32,990 nucleotides of DNA, from the NCBI GenBank assembly GCA_016793045.1, contig JAEUKZ010000314.1, positions 1 to 32,990 on the forward strand, written 5' to 3'. Under the pieces are notes generated by a model. That model searched no databases and was not told the DNA's origin. It worked only from the letters and a program-made list of their open reading frames with translations. The position numbers were made by a program, and so were the translations under genes. The number at the start of each line of letters is the position of its first letter. Within the stretch, counting starts at the first letter, position 1. Source of the DNA: Alphaproteobacteria bacterium (GTDB lineage Bacteria; Pseudomonadota; Alphaproteobacteria; CACIAM-22H2). Positions 7,753 through 21,168 of this stretch are shown piece after piece.

Positions 7753-8607
7753 ATGGGCCGCAACATTGCGTCTGCCATCGATTCCACGTTCGTTGCTTGT
7801 CGTGTTCGCAGATCTGCGGCTCGCATTTGTTTCGCCGTGCTCGCAGGTCTTGCGGGGCTCAGCAGTTCTGCTTTTGCACAAGGTGGGCCGATCGTGTTGG
7901 GCGAGCCGGTCGCCGGACTGGTGACGAACGAACGCGGCGACTCGTGGACCATCGACCTCCGCCAGGGCATGTTCCTGCGGGTCGAACTCGCGCGTGAGCG
8001 GACATCAAGCCTGAACGCCGAATTGTCGGTCGTGGCGGAAGGCGGGCGGATCGTGGCGACGGCGCGGGCGAATAGTGTCGGACTGGTCAGGCTGACGGCG
8101 AATTGCCTGCCGCGCAACGGCCGGTACACGATCGTGGCGCGCTCGCTGGAAGGCCGCCTCGGCGGCCGCTACCAGCTGCGCGTCGATCCGATCTTGGTGA
8201 CGGACGATCTCGGCACGGAAACCGTCGCGTGTTCGGCCACCGACGAGGCCACCGATCGGTCGCGCGGCGAATGTGGTCGCCCGTTGCTGCAGGTCGAGGC
8301 GACGCGGGGCGGGGCGGTGCGCGTGCCGCGCGGCGAGACGCGCCATATCGTGTTGCCGACCGACGGAACCGTCCGCTGGACCTGCGAGCAGCAGGCGGCG
8401 GAGGCCGAGCGCGTGTCGTGCGCCGATGGCAGCACGATCCTGCGCGTCAGCCGGCCTGCGGGTAGCCGCGCGGTCGAATGGACGTGCCTCAGCCGTCGCT
8501 TCGTCGACGAGGCGCCAGCCGATGGAGCGCCGGCGGTCGAACGGGGGCGCCTGACCCGCCTCGTCGCGCCGCGTGCGGCGCCGCCGGCAGAGCCGGCGGC
8601 GCCGTAG
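7753..8607 (+). CDS. Secreted protein with a PPC-like beta-sandwich domain
   Basis: The 284-aa product has an N-terminal signal sequence after a polar lead (hydrophobic FAVLAGLAGLSSSAFA, cleavage near residue 42). Mature residues about 48-135 (GEPVAGLVTNERGDSWTIDL, then LRVELA, LSVVAEGG, RLTANCLPRNGRYTIVARS, GGRYQLRVDP) look like a bacterial pre-peptidase C-terminal (PPC)-type beta sandwich, which is usually a non-catalytic accessory domain. The second half has repeated Cys-containing strands (VRWTCEQQ, RVSCADGS, VEWTCLSR), suggesting disulfides. The C-terminus is Ala/Pro-rich. No catalytic motif is seen, so it is probably an envelope or adhesion accessory protein. It ends 10 bp from the convergent ABC-binding-protein gene. 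Confidence 0.65.
   Translation: MGRNIASAIDSTFVACRVRRSAARICFAVLAGLAGLSSSAFAQGGPIVLGEPVAGLVTNERGDSWTIDLRQGMFLRVELARERTSSLNAELSVVAEGGRIVATARANSVGLVRLTANCLPRNGRYTIVARSLEGRLGGRYQLRVDPILVTDDLGTETVACSATDEATDRSRGECGRPLLQVEATRGGAVRVPRGETRHIVLPTDGTVRWTCEQQAAEAERVSCADGSTILRVSRPAGSRAVEWTCLSRRFVDEAPADGAPAVERGRLTRLVAPRAAPPAEPAAP
8577..8603. terminator. Perfect 12-bp hairpin between convergent genes (possible terminator)
   Basis: GGCGCCGCCGGC-AGA-GCCGGCGGCGCC forms a perfect stem with a 3-nt loop, ending four bases before the end of the secreted-protein gene and about 15 bp from the convergent gene's stop. There is no T-tract on either side. It could stop polymerase or protect 3' ends in both directions, but it also encodes an Ala/Pro tail. 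Confidence 0.35.
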
Positions 8608-8617
8608 ATGACACTAC

Positions 8618-10240
8618 TCAGCTCTTGGCAACCGTCCGGTAAAGGATCAGGTCGTTCGTCGCGCCCTGGCGGTAGTTCGCGACGGCCTGACGCATCGCCA
8701 CGGCCGCCTGCGCCTGGAACATGATGACGATCGGCGACTCGCGCTGCACGTCGCGCTGCAGCGCCTGATAGAGTTCGGCGCGCCGCGCCGCGTCCGGCTC
8801 GGTCAGCGCCGCCGTCGTGCGCTGGCTGAGTTCGGGGATGAGCCAGCTGTTGCGCCATGTCGTCGTGCTCTGCGGCGCGTCGTCGGCGTTGTTGGTGTTG
8901 TAGGCAAAGGCCTTGGCATTCGAATGCGCGTCCATGAAGTCCGGGTTCCAGTAGATCAGCATCATCTGGTGATTGCGTGCGCGATACTTCGTGATGACCT
9001 GCGCCGACGTGCCGGGAACGAGGTTGAGGCGGATATTGGCCTGCGCCATCGTCTGCTGAATCGACTGCGCGACGTCCATGAACGGCGCGGCACTGATGAC
9101 GTCCATGTCGATGCTGAGGCCGTCTTGGAGCCCCGCGCGGGCAAGGATCTCGCGCGCCCTGGCGACGTCGAGGCGGTACGGCCGGTCGGTCAGTGCGCCC
9201 GGAAAGCCGACGGGCAGGAATGCCTGGTGGACGCGCATCTGTCCACGCAGCAGCCGGTCGGCGATGCCGTCATAGTCGACCAGCCAGCGCATCGCCTCCC
9301 ACAGCGCAGGATTTCGCAGGCGCTCGTGGCGCAGGTTGACGGTGAAGAAATGAATCGTCGCCTGGGGAAACCGCTCCACCCTCAAGCCTGCGCGCTGCGC
9401 GGCGCTGGCGATCTCGTCGGGACCGAGATCGCGCGCGATGTCGATGTCGCCGCGCTCGAGCAGCAGGCGCTGGGTACCCGGTTCTGGAACATGGCGGAGA
9501 ATGACCTGGTCGAGCGCAGGGGCGCCGCGGAAGTGCCGCGGATTTGCCGCAAGCGTTACGCTCTCGCTCGGACGCACGCGGGCGATCCGGAAGGCGCCCG
9601 AACCGGCGGAATTCTGGCCGAGCCAAGCGTTGCCGAGATCGCCGTTCTGTTCGTGCGCCATCGCCTCGACCTGGTCGACGATCGCCGCCGGCCGCGCGCC
9701 GAGCGCGTTGAGGACGAACGCGGGCGAGAAGTTCTCGGTGATCGTCACCGAGACCTCGCGCGGCCCGGTCTTGCGAACCAGCTGGTCGACGTTGTTCGGC
9801 CGCCAGCCGAGTTGCGCGAGGATGAACGCAGGCGGCTTGTTGAGGCGGATGACGCGGCGGAACGAGAACTCGACATCTTCCGGTCGCACGGGATTGCCGC
9901 TCGCGAAGACCGCGCCTTCGCGCAAGGTGAAGGCGATCGTCTTGCCGTCCGCGCCCACTTGCCAGCTCGTCGCAAGGGACGGCTGCAGGCGCGTCGGATC
10001 CTCGACATCGTATTGGACGAGCCGGTCGTAGATGTTGGCGAGGATCTCGCCGCCGGTGAACTCGAACGTCTGTGCCGGGTCGAGGCTGATGATGTCATCG
10101 ATGTTCTTGGCGACGACCAGCGTCCGCGCCGGTACCTGTGCCGCCGCGTCGCGCTGCGATAGCCCCGAAACGATCATCGGAGCGCCGATGGCGCCGCCGA
10201 CGAAGATCCGCGCGACGTCGCGCCGTGACCATGATCCCAT
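8618..10240 (-). CDS. ABC transporter substrate-binding protein, family 5 (peptide/nickel type), Tat-exported
   Basis: The 540-aa product is a family 5 (DppA/OppA-like) solute-binding protein. It opens with a twin-arginine signal (WSRRDVARIFVGGA, then a hydrophobic core and AAAQ cleavage). It then shows ARTLVVAKNIDDIISLDPAQTFE, NIYDRLVQYD, LQPSLATSWQVGADGKTIAFTLREGAVFASGNPVRPEDVEFSF and LERGDIDIARDL, all family signatures. It should bind a peptide or similar ligand in the periplasm for an inner-membrane importer. No permease or ATPase gene is next to it; only an unrelated-looking DppC-type fragment lies 22 kb away at the right edge. The ATG at 10240 has AGGGAG upstream. The gene appears intact. 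Confidence 0.92.
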   Translation of the reverse strand: MGSWSRRDVARIFVGGAIGAPMIVSGLSQRDAAAQVPARTLVVAKNIDDIISLDPAQTFEFTGGEILANIYDRLVQYDVEDPTRLQPSLATSWQVGADGKTIAFTLREGAVFASGNPVRPEDVEFSFRRVIRLNKPPAFILAQLGWRPNNVDQLVRKTGPREVSVTITENFSPAFVLNALGARPAAIVDQVEAMAHEQNGDLGNAWLGQNSAGSGAFRIARVRPSESVTLAANPRHFRGAPALDQVILRHVPEPGTQRLLLERGDIDIARDLGPDEIASAAQRAGLRVERFPQATIHFFTVNLRHERLRNPALWEAMRWLVDYDGIADRLLRGQMRVHQAFLPVGFPGALTDRPYRLDVARAREILARAGLQDGLSIDMDVISAAPFMDVAQSIQQTMAQANIRLNLVPGTSAQVITKYRARNHQMMLIYWNPDFMDAHSNAKAFAYNTNNADDAPQSTTTWRNSWLIPELSQRTTAALTEPDAARRAELYQALQRDVQRESPIVIMFQAQAAVAMRQAVANYRQGATNDLILYRTVAKS

Positions 10241-10356
10241 TGTCTTGACTCCCTTCGTTCATGCCTTGGCCGGGAGTATGTGGGCGGGGACCGTACCGGT
10301 CAACGCGACGGCCGGCTGCGGCGGGTCGGCCGGTATTGGCGGCCCCGTCGCCGATC

Positions 10357-10390
10357 TTAGCGAAAAGTTAATCGCAGCCCGGAATATATT
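10357..10390 (+). promoter_or_regulatory. AT-rich promoter candidate for the PAS histidine kinase
   Basis: The 211-bp divergent gap is GC-rich apart from this stretch, which includes TTAGCG, AAAAGTTAA and a TATATT (10385-10390) that resembles a -10 element. No good -35 sits at 16-18 bp, so the promoter is only suggested. Confidence 0.3.
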
Positions 10391-10451
10391 CTGTCGAAGG
10401 GGGACGACCTCGTCGGGCGACCTCGCCCGGCGTTAGGGAAAGCGCCACGTC

Positions 10452-12056
10452 ATGCTGAACATCGACGACGCCGTTTCACCTGCCAGCGGCTTGCGGGGCT
10501 CTGAGATGTCGCGGCCCGCAATTCAGCATCTGCTCGATATCATCGAGGGCTCGTCGCAGGCGCTCGTCGTCCACCGCGGCGGGGCGCCGCTCTTCGTCAA
10601 CTCGGCGATGGCCAAGCTCGTGGGCATCGGATCACGCGAGGAGTTGCTGGCCGAGCCCTCGATCCTCCCCTTCCTCCATCCCGATGACAGAGCCATGGTC
10701 GGCACGAACGTCCGCGACCGACTCGCGGGGCGGTCGGCGCCGACCGACTACGAGTTCCGCCTGCTTGCCCGCGATGGGGGCATAATCTGGGTCGACTGCC
10801 GGGCGAGCGTCATCGAGTGGAGCGGCGGGCCGGCGGTGCTGGCCGCACTGTTCGACATCAACGCGCGCAAGGAAGCGTTGCAGGCCCAGACGCGGTCCGA
10901 AGCGCTGCTCGCTCGCGCCTTCACCGCGACGCCGGAAATGATGGCGCTGCAGTCGATGGCGGACGGCCGCTACGTCAAGGTCAACGACGCCTTCTGCCGA
11001 ATGCTCGGCCGCGCAGCGGAAGACTTGGTCGGGCGGACCCCGCGTGAGATCGGCGTATGGGCGAATGACGGCTTCGACGAGGCGTTGCGGAGCGAGCTCG
11101 CCGCCGCGCGGACGGTGCGCATGGCGGAGGCGACGATGCGCCCTGCCGACGGCGGTGCTGTCACCGTAGAGCTATCCGCGGAGATCCTGGAGCTGCAAGG
11201 CGACGCGCTGCTGCTGATGGTCGGCCGCGACGTCACGCTCCATCGGCTGCAGGAGGAGGACCTGCGGCGCAGCAAACAGGAAGCCGAGCTCGCGAACCGG
11301 ACGAAGAGCGAGTTTCTCGCGAACATGAGCCACGAGCTGCGGACACCGCTCAATGCGATCCTCGGATTCTCACAGGTGATGCGCGACGAGCTTCTCGGAC
11401 CGCTGGGAACTCCGCGCTACCGCGAATACGCCGACGATATCCATCGCAGCGGCGCCCTGCTGCTGAACATCATCAATGATGTGCTCGACCTCGCGAAGCT
11501 CGAGGCCGGCAAGGTCGAGCTGCGGGAGGAGACCTTCTCGCTGCCGGGAGCGATCCGCGAGAGTGCCAGGCTCGTGCGCGATCGTGCACGCGAGGGCGAC
11601 TTGACCCTCGACCTGCCGTTGTCCGACGGCGACCCGTGGATCGTCGGCGACGAACGCCTCATCAAGCAGGTTGTCCTCAACCTGCTCAGCAATGCCGTGA
11701 AGTTCACGCCGCCCGGCGGGCGCGTCTCGGTCCGGATCGAGGAGGGCGCATCGGGTGCGATCGTCATCCATGTCGCCGATACCGGCATCGGCATGAGCGA
11801 AGAGGACATCCCGCGCGCGCTCGCGCCGTTCGGCCAGATCGACAGTGCGTTCACGCGCCGCCATGCCGGAACCGGACTTGGCTTGCCGCTCGCCAAGTCG
11901 CTCGTCGAACTGCATGGCGGCGACCTCACGATCCGCAGCGGACCGGGCGAGGGCACCGACATCGCCGTCACGATTCCGACGCGCCGCGTAAGGTCGGCCG
12001 AGCGTGGGCCGTCGTCGCCGGCATCAGGCGGCGTGACCTCCACGGAGATGATCTGA
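10452..12056 (+). CDS. PAS-domain sensor histidine kinase (soluble, two PAS domains)
   Basis: The 534-aa product has two PAS domains (about residues 22-140 and 150-270), then a dimerisation/phosphoacceptor domain with FLANMSHELRTPLNAILGFS (His294) and a GHKL ATPase domain. ATPase motifs are intact: the N-box VVLNLLSNAVKFTP, G1 DTGIGM, F-box PFGQID, and G2 GTGLGLPLAKSL. There is no transmembrane segment, so it senses a cytosolic or PAS-bound signal (redox, ligand or light cannot be told apart from sequence). There is no receiver domain and no response-regulator gene beside it, so it is an orphan kinase. An AGGGAAAG ribosome site lies about 12 bases from the ATG, a little far. Its 3' end overlaps the convergent gene by 33 bp. 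Confidence 0.92.
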   Translation: MLNIDDAVSPASGLRGSEMSRPAIQHLLDIIEGSSQALVVHRGGAPLFVNSAMAKLVGIGSREELLAEPSILPFLHPDDRAMVGTNVRDRLAGRSAPTDYEFRLLARDGGIIWVDCRASVIEWSGGPAVLAALFDINARKEALQAQTRSEALLARAFTATPEMMALQSMADGRYVKVNDAFCRMLGRAAEDLVGRTPREIGVWANDGFDEALRSELAAARTVRMAEATMRPADGGAVTVELSAEILELQGDALLLMVGRDVTLHRLQEEDLRRSKQEAELANRTKSEFLANMSHELRTPLNAILGFSQVMRDELLGPLGTPRYREYADDIHRSGALLLNIINDVLDLAKLEAGKVELREETFSLPGAIRESARLVRDRAREGDLTLDLPLSDGDPWIVGDERLIKQVVLNLLSNAVKFTPPGGRVSVRIEEGASGAIVIHVADTGIGMSEEDIPRALAPFGQIDSAFTRRHAGTGLGLPLAKSLVELHGGDLTIRSGPGEGTDIAVTIPTRRVRSAERGPSSPASGGVTSTEMI

Positions 12057-19174: not shown

Positions 19175-19717
19175 TCAGCGCGGCGGCGCGATGCCGCACG
19201 GGTCGGCGGATGCGAAGCTGCGGTCGGGGGCAGGGACCATCCAGTCGTCGGGCCAGCGCGCCGGGAAGGTGTAGCCCGGACCGGCGATGCGCCGGCGGGT
19301 TTCGCGCACGCGCCGCCCGGCCTCGTCGAACACGATGCGGTCGCGCAAGTCGGTGCCGTTGACCGCGCCGGCTTCGATCAGCACCAGCCGCAGGCGGCCT
19401 TCGCGGTCGTAGTACTGGCGCGTCGCGACATGCGAATCGTCGCTGCCCTGTTCGGTGCGGTAGAGCCGCGTCACGCCGGCGCGGTCGCGGAAGCGCTCGT
19501 GCCGGCTGCCGAGCGGTGGGCAGTCGGCGAACTCCCGCGCCTCCGCTTCGAGGGCGCGGCGCGCCAGCGCCTCGTTGACCTCGCGCTCGACGATCCGCGC
19601 CGTCCGGTCGGCCTGCGCGATCGCGCGGGTGTCCTGTGCGATGGCCGGCGAGGCGGCGAACAGCGCCGCCGCCAGCGGCGCGAGGAGCCAACGCGGAGGC
19701 GGCAGGCATGGCGACAT
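19175..19717 (-). CDS. Secreted hypothetical protein (180 aa)
   Basis: The ATG at 19717 has AAGG about nine bases upstream and is preferred over an ATG five codons earlier that has no ribosome site. The product begins with a signal peptide (PPRWLLAPLAAALFAASPAIAQ, cleavage after AIA). The mature protein has a long charged helix (ARIVEREVNEALARRALEAEAREFADC) followed by beta-like segments (VTRLYRTEQGSDDSHVATRQYYDREGRLRLVLIEAGAV, DRIVFDEAGRRV). There are two cysteines, one near each end of the mature chain, that could pair. I do not recognise the family. It is divergent from the HExxH protein gene 138 bp away; both products are exported. Confidence 0.7.
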   Translation of the reverse strand: MSPCLPPPRWLLAPLAAALFAASPAIAQDTRAIAQADRTARIVEREVNEALARRALEAEAREFADCPPLGSRHERFRDRAGVTRLYRTEQGSDDSHVATRQYYDREGRLRLVLIEAGAVNGTDLRDRIVFDEAGRRVRETRRRIAGPGYTFPARWPDDWMVPAPDRSFASADPCGIAPPR

Positions 19718-19855
19718 GGTGGGCACCTTCATGGACCGCGCCAGTCTATGGCGCCGGCGGAACGCTGGCCATCCAGGCGGCCCCGTCCCGGCGCAACCTG
19801 GACCGCATGTAATAGGGAATGTATCCTCGACGGCAACAGTGACGGGGGAATGTCG

Positions 19856-20968
19856 ATGCGCAATGCCGCCCGGACGCTGATCGCCGCCGTGATCGCGGGG
19901 GCCGCGGCGATCGCCGCCGGACGCGACGGACTTGCCCAGCCGGCCTGCGACTGCACCCACCTTTCCGTTCTCCAGGCCGAACTGCGCAACGCCCAGCGTC
20001 TGCGGGCGGCCTTTCTCGGACACATGACGACGTTGCGCGGCATGGGCGCGGAGACGGCGCGCGCCGAGCTCCAGCGCTTCGCCGGCAACGAGGCGCGCCG
20101 CGGGCTCGAGGCGGTGCCGGGCGCAGGGGCGCAGAGCGAGGTCGACTACGTGCCCTATGGCGAGGGCGTCGATCCCGACCGCTTCGGCCCGAACACGCCC
20201 GAGCGCAACGCGCAGCTCTGCGCCATGCGCGAATCGAGCGCGGCCGAACTCAACCGCGCGATCGCCGGTGCGGCGTGCGCGGGCATCGGCGAGGCGCTGC
20301 GCGCGCATGAGCGCCATCACGTGGCGATGTGCGGGCGCATCGGCTATCGCAGCTATCTCGGCATGCACGGCGCCGACCGCGCGCAGGAAGAGGCGGAGGC
20401 CTACGGCGCGCAGATCGCGGTGCTGCGGCGCGCGATCGCGACCGCGCTCGAGAACGCGACGGTGCGGATCGAAACCGAAATGACGGTCACCTTCGGGTTT
20501 CCGCCCAATCCGATGTACCGGTCGATCGCCGTCACCGATCGCGGCAACGTGCGCGCCGGCCGTGCCGCCATGGACGGCGAGACGATCCGCCTCGACGGCG
20601 ACGGCGAACTCCTCACCGATGGGACGATCCAGGGCAACTGCCGGTTTTCGGATGCGATGCCGACCCGCCAGCCGGTCCGCGGCACCATCGAGACCGACGG
20701 GCTGACCGTGCAGCTCAGCCTCGCCACCGAACGTCGCCGGCGCGGGCTCGGCATGGTCTGCAGCGTGCCCGGTGCCGCGCGCGGCATCTCGGCCCAGGCA
20801 CCGGCGCCGGGCAATCTGCCGGAAGACATCGCGCTGCCGCTGCGCGACGGCGCCGAAGCGGATCTCGCGTCGGCCTATGCCATCGCGGCGCGGATGACCG
20901 CGGGCAGCGGCGTGCAGATGAGCGGCGAAGGCAAGATCCGCCTGCGCATCGAGTGCCCGATGCGGTGA
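19856..20968 (+). CDS. Secreted protein with a HExxH zinc-peptidase-like motif
   Basis: The 370-aa product starts best at the ATG at 19856, with GGGGGA seven bases upstream; the in-frame ATG at 19850 is too close to it. A signal peptide (to about residue 27, GLAQ) implies export. Residues 151-155 read HERHH, a HExxH zinc motif in a helix (EALRAHERHHVAMC), and the helix about 24 residues later (AQEEAEAYGAQIAVLRR) offers Glu residues that could be the third ligand, as in gluzincins. Five cysteines precede or flank the motif (C-D-C at 31-33, 122, 141, 159). The last 160 residues are beta-rich (ETEMTVTFGFPPN, GETIRLDGDGELLTDGTIQGNC) and may form a substrate or anchoring domain. Protease activity is inference; I know no named family for the whole protein. 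Confidence 0.7.
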   Translation: MRNAARTLIAAVIAGAAAIAAGRDGLAQPACDCTHLSVLQAELRNAQRLRAAFLGHMTTLRGMGAETARAELQRFAGNEARRGLEAVPGAGAQSEVDYVPYGEGVDPDRFGPNTPERNAQLCAMRESSAAELNRAIAGAACAGIGEALRAHERHHVAMCGRIGYRSYLGMHGADRAQEEAEAYGAQIAVLRRAIATALENATVRIETEMTVTFGFPPNPMYRSIAVTDRGNVRAGRAAMDGETIRLDGDGELLTDGTIQGNCRFSDAMPTRQPVRGTIETDGLTVQLSLATERRRRGLGMVCSVPGAARGISAQAPAPGNLPEDIALPLRDGAEADLASAYAIAARMTAGSGVQMSGEGKIRLRIECPMR

Positions 20969-21032: not shown

Positions 21033-21052
21033 CTCTCCCGCTGGCGGGAGAG
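21033..21052. repeat. REP-like palindrome
   Basis: CTCTCCCGC-TG-GCGGGAGAG is a perfect 9-bp stem flanked by GGGAGGGGTGAGGGAGGCG. Sequences of this type (CTCTCCCGC...GCGGGAGAG next to G-rich GAGGG runs) recur as dispersed intergenic palindromes in many GC-rich proteobacteria. Only one copy lies in this window, between the HExxH gene and the nrdJ terminator. Confidence 0.5.
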
Positions 21053-21106
21053 GGAGGGGTGAGGGAGGCGCCGCACCGATCCCGCCTTGAGATTGCCCCA
21101 AGAACC

Positions 21107-21138
21107 AAAACGCCCGCGGGGTCTCCCCCGCGGGCGTC
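21107..21138 (-). terminator. Intrinsic terminator of nrdJ
   Basis: Read on the minus strand, CGCCCGCGGGG-GAGA-CCCCGCGGGCG is a perfect 11-bp stem with a tetraloop, followed at once by TTTTGG. It begins about 30 bases after the nrdJ stop. This is a textbook rho-independent terminator. Confidence 0.9.
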
Positions 21139-21168
21139 TTGGCTGCGGACTGAGGATTCAGCGCGCGG

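Follow-up and report, generated by a model that had tools for sequence, protein, structure and literature searches.

A rare family of exported HExxH proteins from an alphaproteobacterium, Gammaproteobacteria and Acidobacteriota, putatively Glu-zincin-like metallopeptidases

Introduction

What is the exported, cysteine-rich protein that an alphaproteobacterium encodes at positions 19856-20968, and does the HExxH motif that it carries mark a metallopeptidase? The gene lies in a stretch of 32,990 nucleotides, which is the whole of the DNA analysed here and is referred to as the window; its product is called P0001. In the zincin fold, a beta-sheet precedes the helix that bears HExxH, and the Glu of this motif serves catalysis only, without ligating the metal. 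Zincins combine the two His of HExxH with a third ligand on the C-terminal subdomain, which is a Glu in the Glu-zincins (PMC3890501). The PVC metallopeptidase displays HExxHxxQ, with the His on one helix and the Glu on the next, and Tox-MPTase1-5, the metallopeptidase domains of polymorphic toxins, have been described as alpha+beta (PMC3482391). DUF922 (PF06037) has been predicted to be zincin-like, and HExxH also occurs in proteins that are not peptidases, with FA_desaturase being listed among them (PMC3650047). In this study, the gene, its relatives, its putative metal site and its surroundings were investigated.

Results

The open reading frame at 19856-20968 (+), stop codon included, encodes 370 amino acids, and its GC content at codon positions 1/2/3 is 0.73/0.56/0.89 (GC3 0.889); since this resembles the adjacent genes, we consider it a coding gene. 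A second in-frame ATG is present at 19850, and the ATG at 19856 is preferred as the start because a Shine-Dalgarno-like GGGGGA, read from the sequence at 19845-19850 (+), sits about 6 nt before it. The protein begins with a signal-type sequence (RNAARTLIAAVIAGAAAIAAGRDGLA), predicted as a signal peptide over residues 1-27 (19856-19936, +), from which cleavage would fall near A27, and no lipobox was found before C31. Eight cysteines are harbored, at positions 31, 33, 122, 141, 159, 262, 302 and 367. The translation thus agrees with the first-pass annotation in length, signal peptide, number of cysteines, HERHH at residues 151-155 and EEAEAY at residues 178-183. P0001 is single copy in its own genome, where it is the sole family match.

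The earlier statement that the protein belongs to no recognised family also holds, as P0001 has no match in Pfam or NCBIfam, and none of the seven family members described below matches a Pfam-A or NCBIfam model above its curated cut-off. Neither the PHROGs (phage) nor the PADLOC (defence) profiles gave a match, and the sequence search of the PDB returned nothing beyond noise with P0001 and no match with the seven-member profile. With the single sequence, plasmids yielded no match, phages only two hits, both sub-threshold, and the scan of 85,000 species none. In genome searches covering the order (23 genomes, one family), the class (386) and the phylum (398), nothing but the P0001 gene itself proved to be a real match. 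Weak genome matches were inspected at L002, L003-L005, L014 and L017, with L006, L007, L015 and L016 left out; the inspected ones were rejected, being mostly in another frame and lying at genes among which L,D-transpeptidase, MltA-like, DnaJ/DnaK, MFS and similar genes could be named.

Relatives were disclosed by a motif pattern, HE[RKQNHS]xH[VIM]xxC followed after 12-20 residues by ExxAYxx[EQ], which gave only two matches when scanned over 85,000 species. These are P0003 (L011; 390 amino acids, from a gammaproteobacterial metagenome-assembled genome) and P0004 (L012; 259 amino acids, from one of Acidobacteriota), both exported and Cys-rich, and in single BLASTP comparisons they align with P0001 at E = 2e-10 over 312 columns and E = 1e-5 over 183 columns, respectively. 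The profile of these three sequences detected L023, L024 and L025 (E about 1e-22) in the class of the acidobacterium, and the six-sequence profile detected L027 (E = 6e-6) in the class of the gammaproteobacterium. In total, six remote homologues, 22-27% identical, were obtained from Gammaproteobacteria and Acidobacteriota, and all seven members are exported, each starting with a comparable signal sequence.

The similarity is not confined to the residues used in the search. The leave-one-out family profile scored 56.8 bits against P0001, and 17.7 bits after both motifs of P0001 had been masked by X, where the best of 1,000 shuffles reached 4.8; for the profile of the four acidobacterial members the scores were 42.6 bits, and 17.2 when masked, with 6.8 as the best of 1,000 shuffles. 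Shuffles with the motifs held in place reached a top score of 25.0 bits. As the masked scores exceed those of the shuffles, the homology of P0001 is independent of the search motif. The two gammaproteobacterial members are less secure, as masking took away most of their score and left 4.3 and 4.5 bits, which is equal or close to the best shuffle, but a direct comparison of L027 with P0003 gave 3e-11. P0001 displays the signal peptide, CxC or CxxCC, C122, HExxHxxxC, ExxxY and homology outside the motifs that characterise these proteins, and it is a member of a small, rare and undescribed family of exported proteins.

The conserved core begins at the CxC of C31 and C33 (19946-19954, +). Nine residues of this framework and of the motif region are invariant in 7/7 members, namely C33, C122 (20219-20221, +), H151, E152, H155, C159, A176, E179 and Y183, as are P100 and P107; in reading this invariance, it should be considered that the pattern which picked out P0003 and P0004 itself requires H, E, H, C, E, A and Y, that L023-L025 and L027 were found by profiles, not by the pattern, though those motif residues weigh heavily there, and that members without HExxH would be harder to detect. 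In 7/7 members a Cys precedes HExxH by 8-10 residues (C141 in P0001, 20276-20278, +), its alignment column shifting slightly. The segment HERHHVAMC (residues 151-159; 20306-20332, +), with its motif residues invariant in 7/7, lies on a predicted helix, and AQEEAEAY (A176-Y183; 20381-20404, +) on the next one. The first-pass annotation had named conservation of HExxH in homologues as a test that its proposal could fail, and H151, E152 and H155, together with the Glu, were found to be kept in 7/7 members from three bacterial groups.

The same annotation had proposed E178, E179 or E181 as a third ligand, and only one of the three withstands the comparison. Across the seven members, position 178 reads E, E, N, D, G, R and H, and position 181 reads E, A, K, A, A, A and S, while position 179 is E in every one; because E178 and E181 vary, the putative third ligand, if there is any, is E179. 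Helix-face analysis at 100 degrees per residue placed A176, E179, Y183, Q/E186 and L190 together on a single face (clustering this tight arises in 0.34% of random sets), with E178 and E181 off it, and H151, E152, H155 and C159 likewise share one face (4.4% of random sets).

The core, residues 29-205, was modelled with AlphaFold from a three-sequence alignment (model residue + 28 = protein residue). The best of five models reached pLDDT 67.4 and pTM 0.71, and the other four pLDDT 45-56. This weak model predicts helices at 32-60, 65-85, 115-137, 144-162 and 172-204, with HERHH on the helix 144-162 and E179 on the helix 172-204, and so the modelled core agrees with the earlier proposal of a downstream Glu on the helix next to HExxH. 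Seven residues separate H155 from the end of its helix, and E179 lies seven residues into the next, the level expected of the two residues in a predicted helical hairpin. The core model consists of helices only and places no beta-sheet ahead of the one that bears HExxH, but this lack of a sheet is unreliable at the low quality of the model (pLDDT 67.4, others 45-56). The acidobacterial members harbor a strand-like segment before HExxH, of which P0001 shows only a shortened form. Foldseek with the core model gave nothing at E<=0.001, and its matches were helical bundles without meaning. The full-length model of P0001 (pLDDT 35) is uninformative.

The C-terminal half (residues 206-370; 20471-20965, +), which contains C262, C302 and C367, appears beta-rich by sequence. 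It is weakly similar to the C-terminal half of P0003 only, where 2/978 shuffles reach the real score, and it is absent from the other five relatives, whose proteins end soon after the core. The view of this half as a separate part is thus sustained by its absence from 5/6 relatives, and on this comparison it is best described as an accessory part.

The gene of P0001 is flanked by an MFS transporter gene and by a class II ribonucleotide reductase gene that runs convergent to it, and both neighbours are uninformative on its role. Two GC-rich palindromes, cgctctcccgctggcgggagag and acgcccgcggggtctcccccgcgggcgt, were observed at about 21033-21140, between the convergent ends of the P0001 and ribonucleotide reductase genes, and the second, which lacks a T run, may serve both genes as a terminator. 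On the other side, the divergent exported reading frame was confirmed as P0002 (19175-19732, -), an orphan of 185 amino acids; its start at 19717 gives a gap of 138 bp, and the alternative start at 19732 a gap of 123 bp. P0002 has YD-like strands, with sub-threshold hits to TIGR01643 and DUF6443.

In 4/4 acidobacterial members, the HExxH gene lies within a tight same-strand run of three genes (L033:4243-6410 and downstream; L029:1-2296; L030 at about 8400-11692; L031:3819-7001), of which the first encodes a polytopic-looking membrane protein with a C-terminal TPR, the second the HExxH protein and the third an exported protein with HEAT repeats. This cluster is a possible clue to the substrate or the site of action. 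As for the gammaproteobacterial loci, a DUF6683 protein (5.6e-15) with an export-type N-terminal part is encoded directly upstream of P0003 (L034:2061-3668), and an exported protein of 681 amino acids without Pfam match, as well as a protein of 1653 amino acids with Big_5 and RCC1 repeats, are found beside the L027 member (L032:707-7710).

Discussion

Our data point, with a probability of roughly 0.6, to P0001 being a small metallopeptidase (or metallohydrolase), secreted or periplasmic, of an undescribed, Glu-zincin-like family, in which metal binding and catalysis would reside in the conserved HExxH and E179. The protein would fold outside the cytoplasm, stabilised by disulphides, into a mostly helical core, to which the beta-rich C-terminal part is an accessory. 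A divalent metal, probably zinc, would be bound by H151 and H155 from one helix and by E179 from the following one, and water would be activated by E152, as in the Glu-zincin peptidases; the C-terminal part may help to hold the presumed substrate. Like the Glu-zincins (MEROPS MA(E)), P0001 harbors HExxH and a conserved Glu 24 residues past the second His, and like secreted zincins it has an export signal. Unlike MA(E) members, it shows no sequence, profile or fold match and no sheet in the weak core model, and it is set apart by the Cys four residues past HExxH, the conserved Cys framework and the ExxAY of the helix that would bear the third ligand. That no peptidase family was matched by profile or by structure speaks against the peptidase reading, as do the sheetless core model, weak as it is, the choice of two of the six relatives by the motif itself, and the drop in score of the gammaproteobacterial members upon masking.

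It is possible, if rather unlikely, that the metal site of HExxH and E179 plays a structural role or serves storage, sensing or delivery, in which case P0001 would be no enzyme but a helical metal-binding protein that is exported. Such a protein would fit the all-helical core model without a zincin-type sheet, weak as that model is, the want of a peptidase family match and the occurrence of HExxH in non-peptidases such as FA_desaturase (PMC3650047). Against it stands E152, invariant in 7/7 members as expected of an enzyme; since this Glu ligates no metal in zincins, its invariance fits catalysis.

A distinctly doubtful, further-reaching version of the peptidase reading is that P0001 is a founding member of a new superfamily of metallopeptidases, exported, all-helical and framed by disulphides, in which a helical hairpin came to carry the HExxH...E zinc site in the absence of the zincin sheet.

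We regard it as improbable that P0001 belongs, as a very divergent member, to one of the known zincin families, for instance DUF922 (PF06037), PF13699 or DUF6782, and the comparisons with each can be set out here. Like DUF922 proteins, which are exported or membrane-anchored, the members are bacterial, exported and HExxH-bearing, and in the acidobacterial ones a segment WDxTLKVxPxTC...P before HExxH resembles DUF922. However, the DUF922 (PF06037) model matches 0/7 members and nothing in the genome of P0001, the DUF922 example lacks both E..AY (ExxAY in P0001) and the Cys framework, and hhalign against this one protein gave a probability of 1.5% over HExxH alone. PF13699, the PVC/eCIS core, is similar in that the modelled P0001 has its His pair on one helix and the Glu on the next, and differs in that P0001 has M158 at the Q position of HExxHxxQ; its Pfam model also matches 0/7 members and nothing in the genome of P0001, and hhalign against one eCIS domain gave 0.7%, again over HExxH alone. 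Both hhalign tests are weak because a single example was used for each. No member matches the DUF6782 model either. Tox-MPTase1-5 resemble P0001 as small HExxH domains in exported bacterial proteins, but P0001 has neither RHS nor other toxin architecture, nor a Pfam match.

A phage comparison also bears on this point. An alignment-based search of viral contigs confirmed none of 533 pattern matches. By the pattern HE..H...C..E..[AG]Y, four short phage ORFs with HE..H...C..E.EAY, mostly of unannotated kinds, were caught in viral contigs (L041:5303-5719; L042:679-1158; L043:4310-4735, -; L044:1475-1738), displaying HELIHREQC...EAEAY, HELIHAKQC...EAEAY, HEMVHVRQC...EIEAY and HEATHALQC...EVEAY. Two of the four weakly match metallopeptidase models, one the PHROG 87 metallo-protease (3e-4) and one DUF6782 (1.1e-4, below cut-off), the latter lending something to the known-family reading. 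They share with P0001 the succession of His, Cys, Glu and Tyr and the distances between these residues, a likeness by construction, as these ORFs were found by pattern; their surroundings differ, and against the family profile they score 2.6-12.1 bits over the motif region only. This says that the P0001-type signature occurs in zincin-like proteins, and it does not make the phage ORFs homologues.

The first-pass annotation had further suggested that P0001 and its divergent neighbour form a regulated secreted pair, for example a protease with its inhibitor or substrate, and this could not be upheld. The two genes are divergent over 123-138 bp, both products are exported, and within the order both genes are unique to the genome of P0001. 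Nevertheless, matches to P0002 were absent from the remaining 22 genomes of the order, from plasmids and from every locus holding another family member; no promoter-like site or joint signal was found between the genes in a scan for the sigma-70 type; and two adjacent orphans could also be one lineage-specific insertion. We therefore consider the pair highly improbable. That HExxH arose by chance in an otherwise ordinary exported protein of helical build is just as hard to credit and largely refuted, for although the motif arises in 110 of 20,000 shuffles of P0001 (about 0.55%, with dozens expected per proteome) and is thus weak evidence by itself, it gains weight from being kept in remote homologues, with H151, E152, H155 and E179 invariant across three bacterial groups at 22-27% identity and homology backed outside the motifs.

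Conclusions

If the Glu-zincin-like metallopeptidase reading is true, an undescribed, rare and cross-phylum family joins the exported metallopeptidases, and it comes with a clear set of residues for testing, namely H151, E152, H155, E179, C159 and Y183. A core that truly consisted of helices alone would be unusual as a scaffold for HExxH. The gene cluster of the acidobacterial members may, in that case of a peptidase, point to the substrate of the family.
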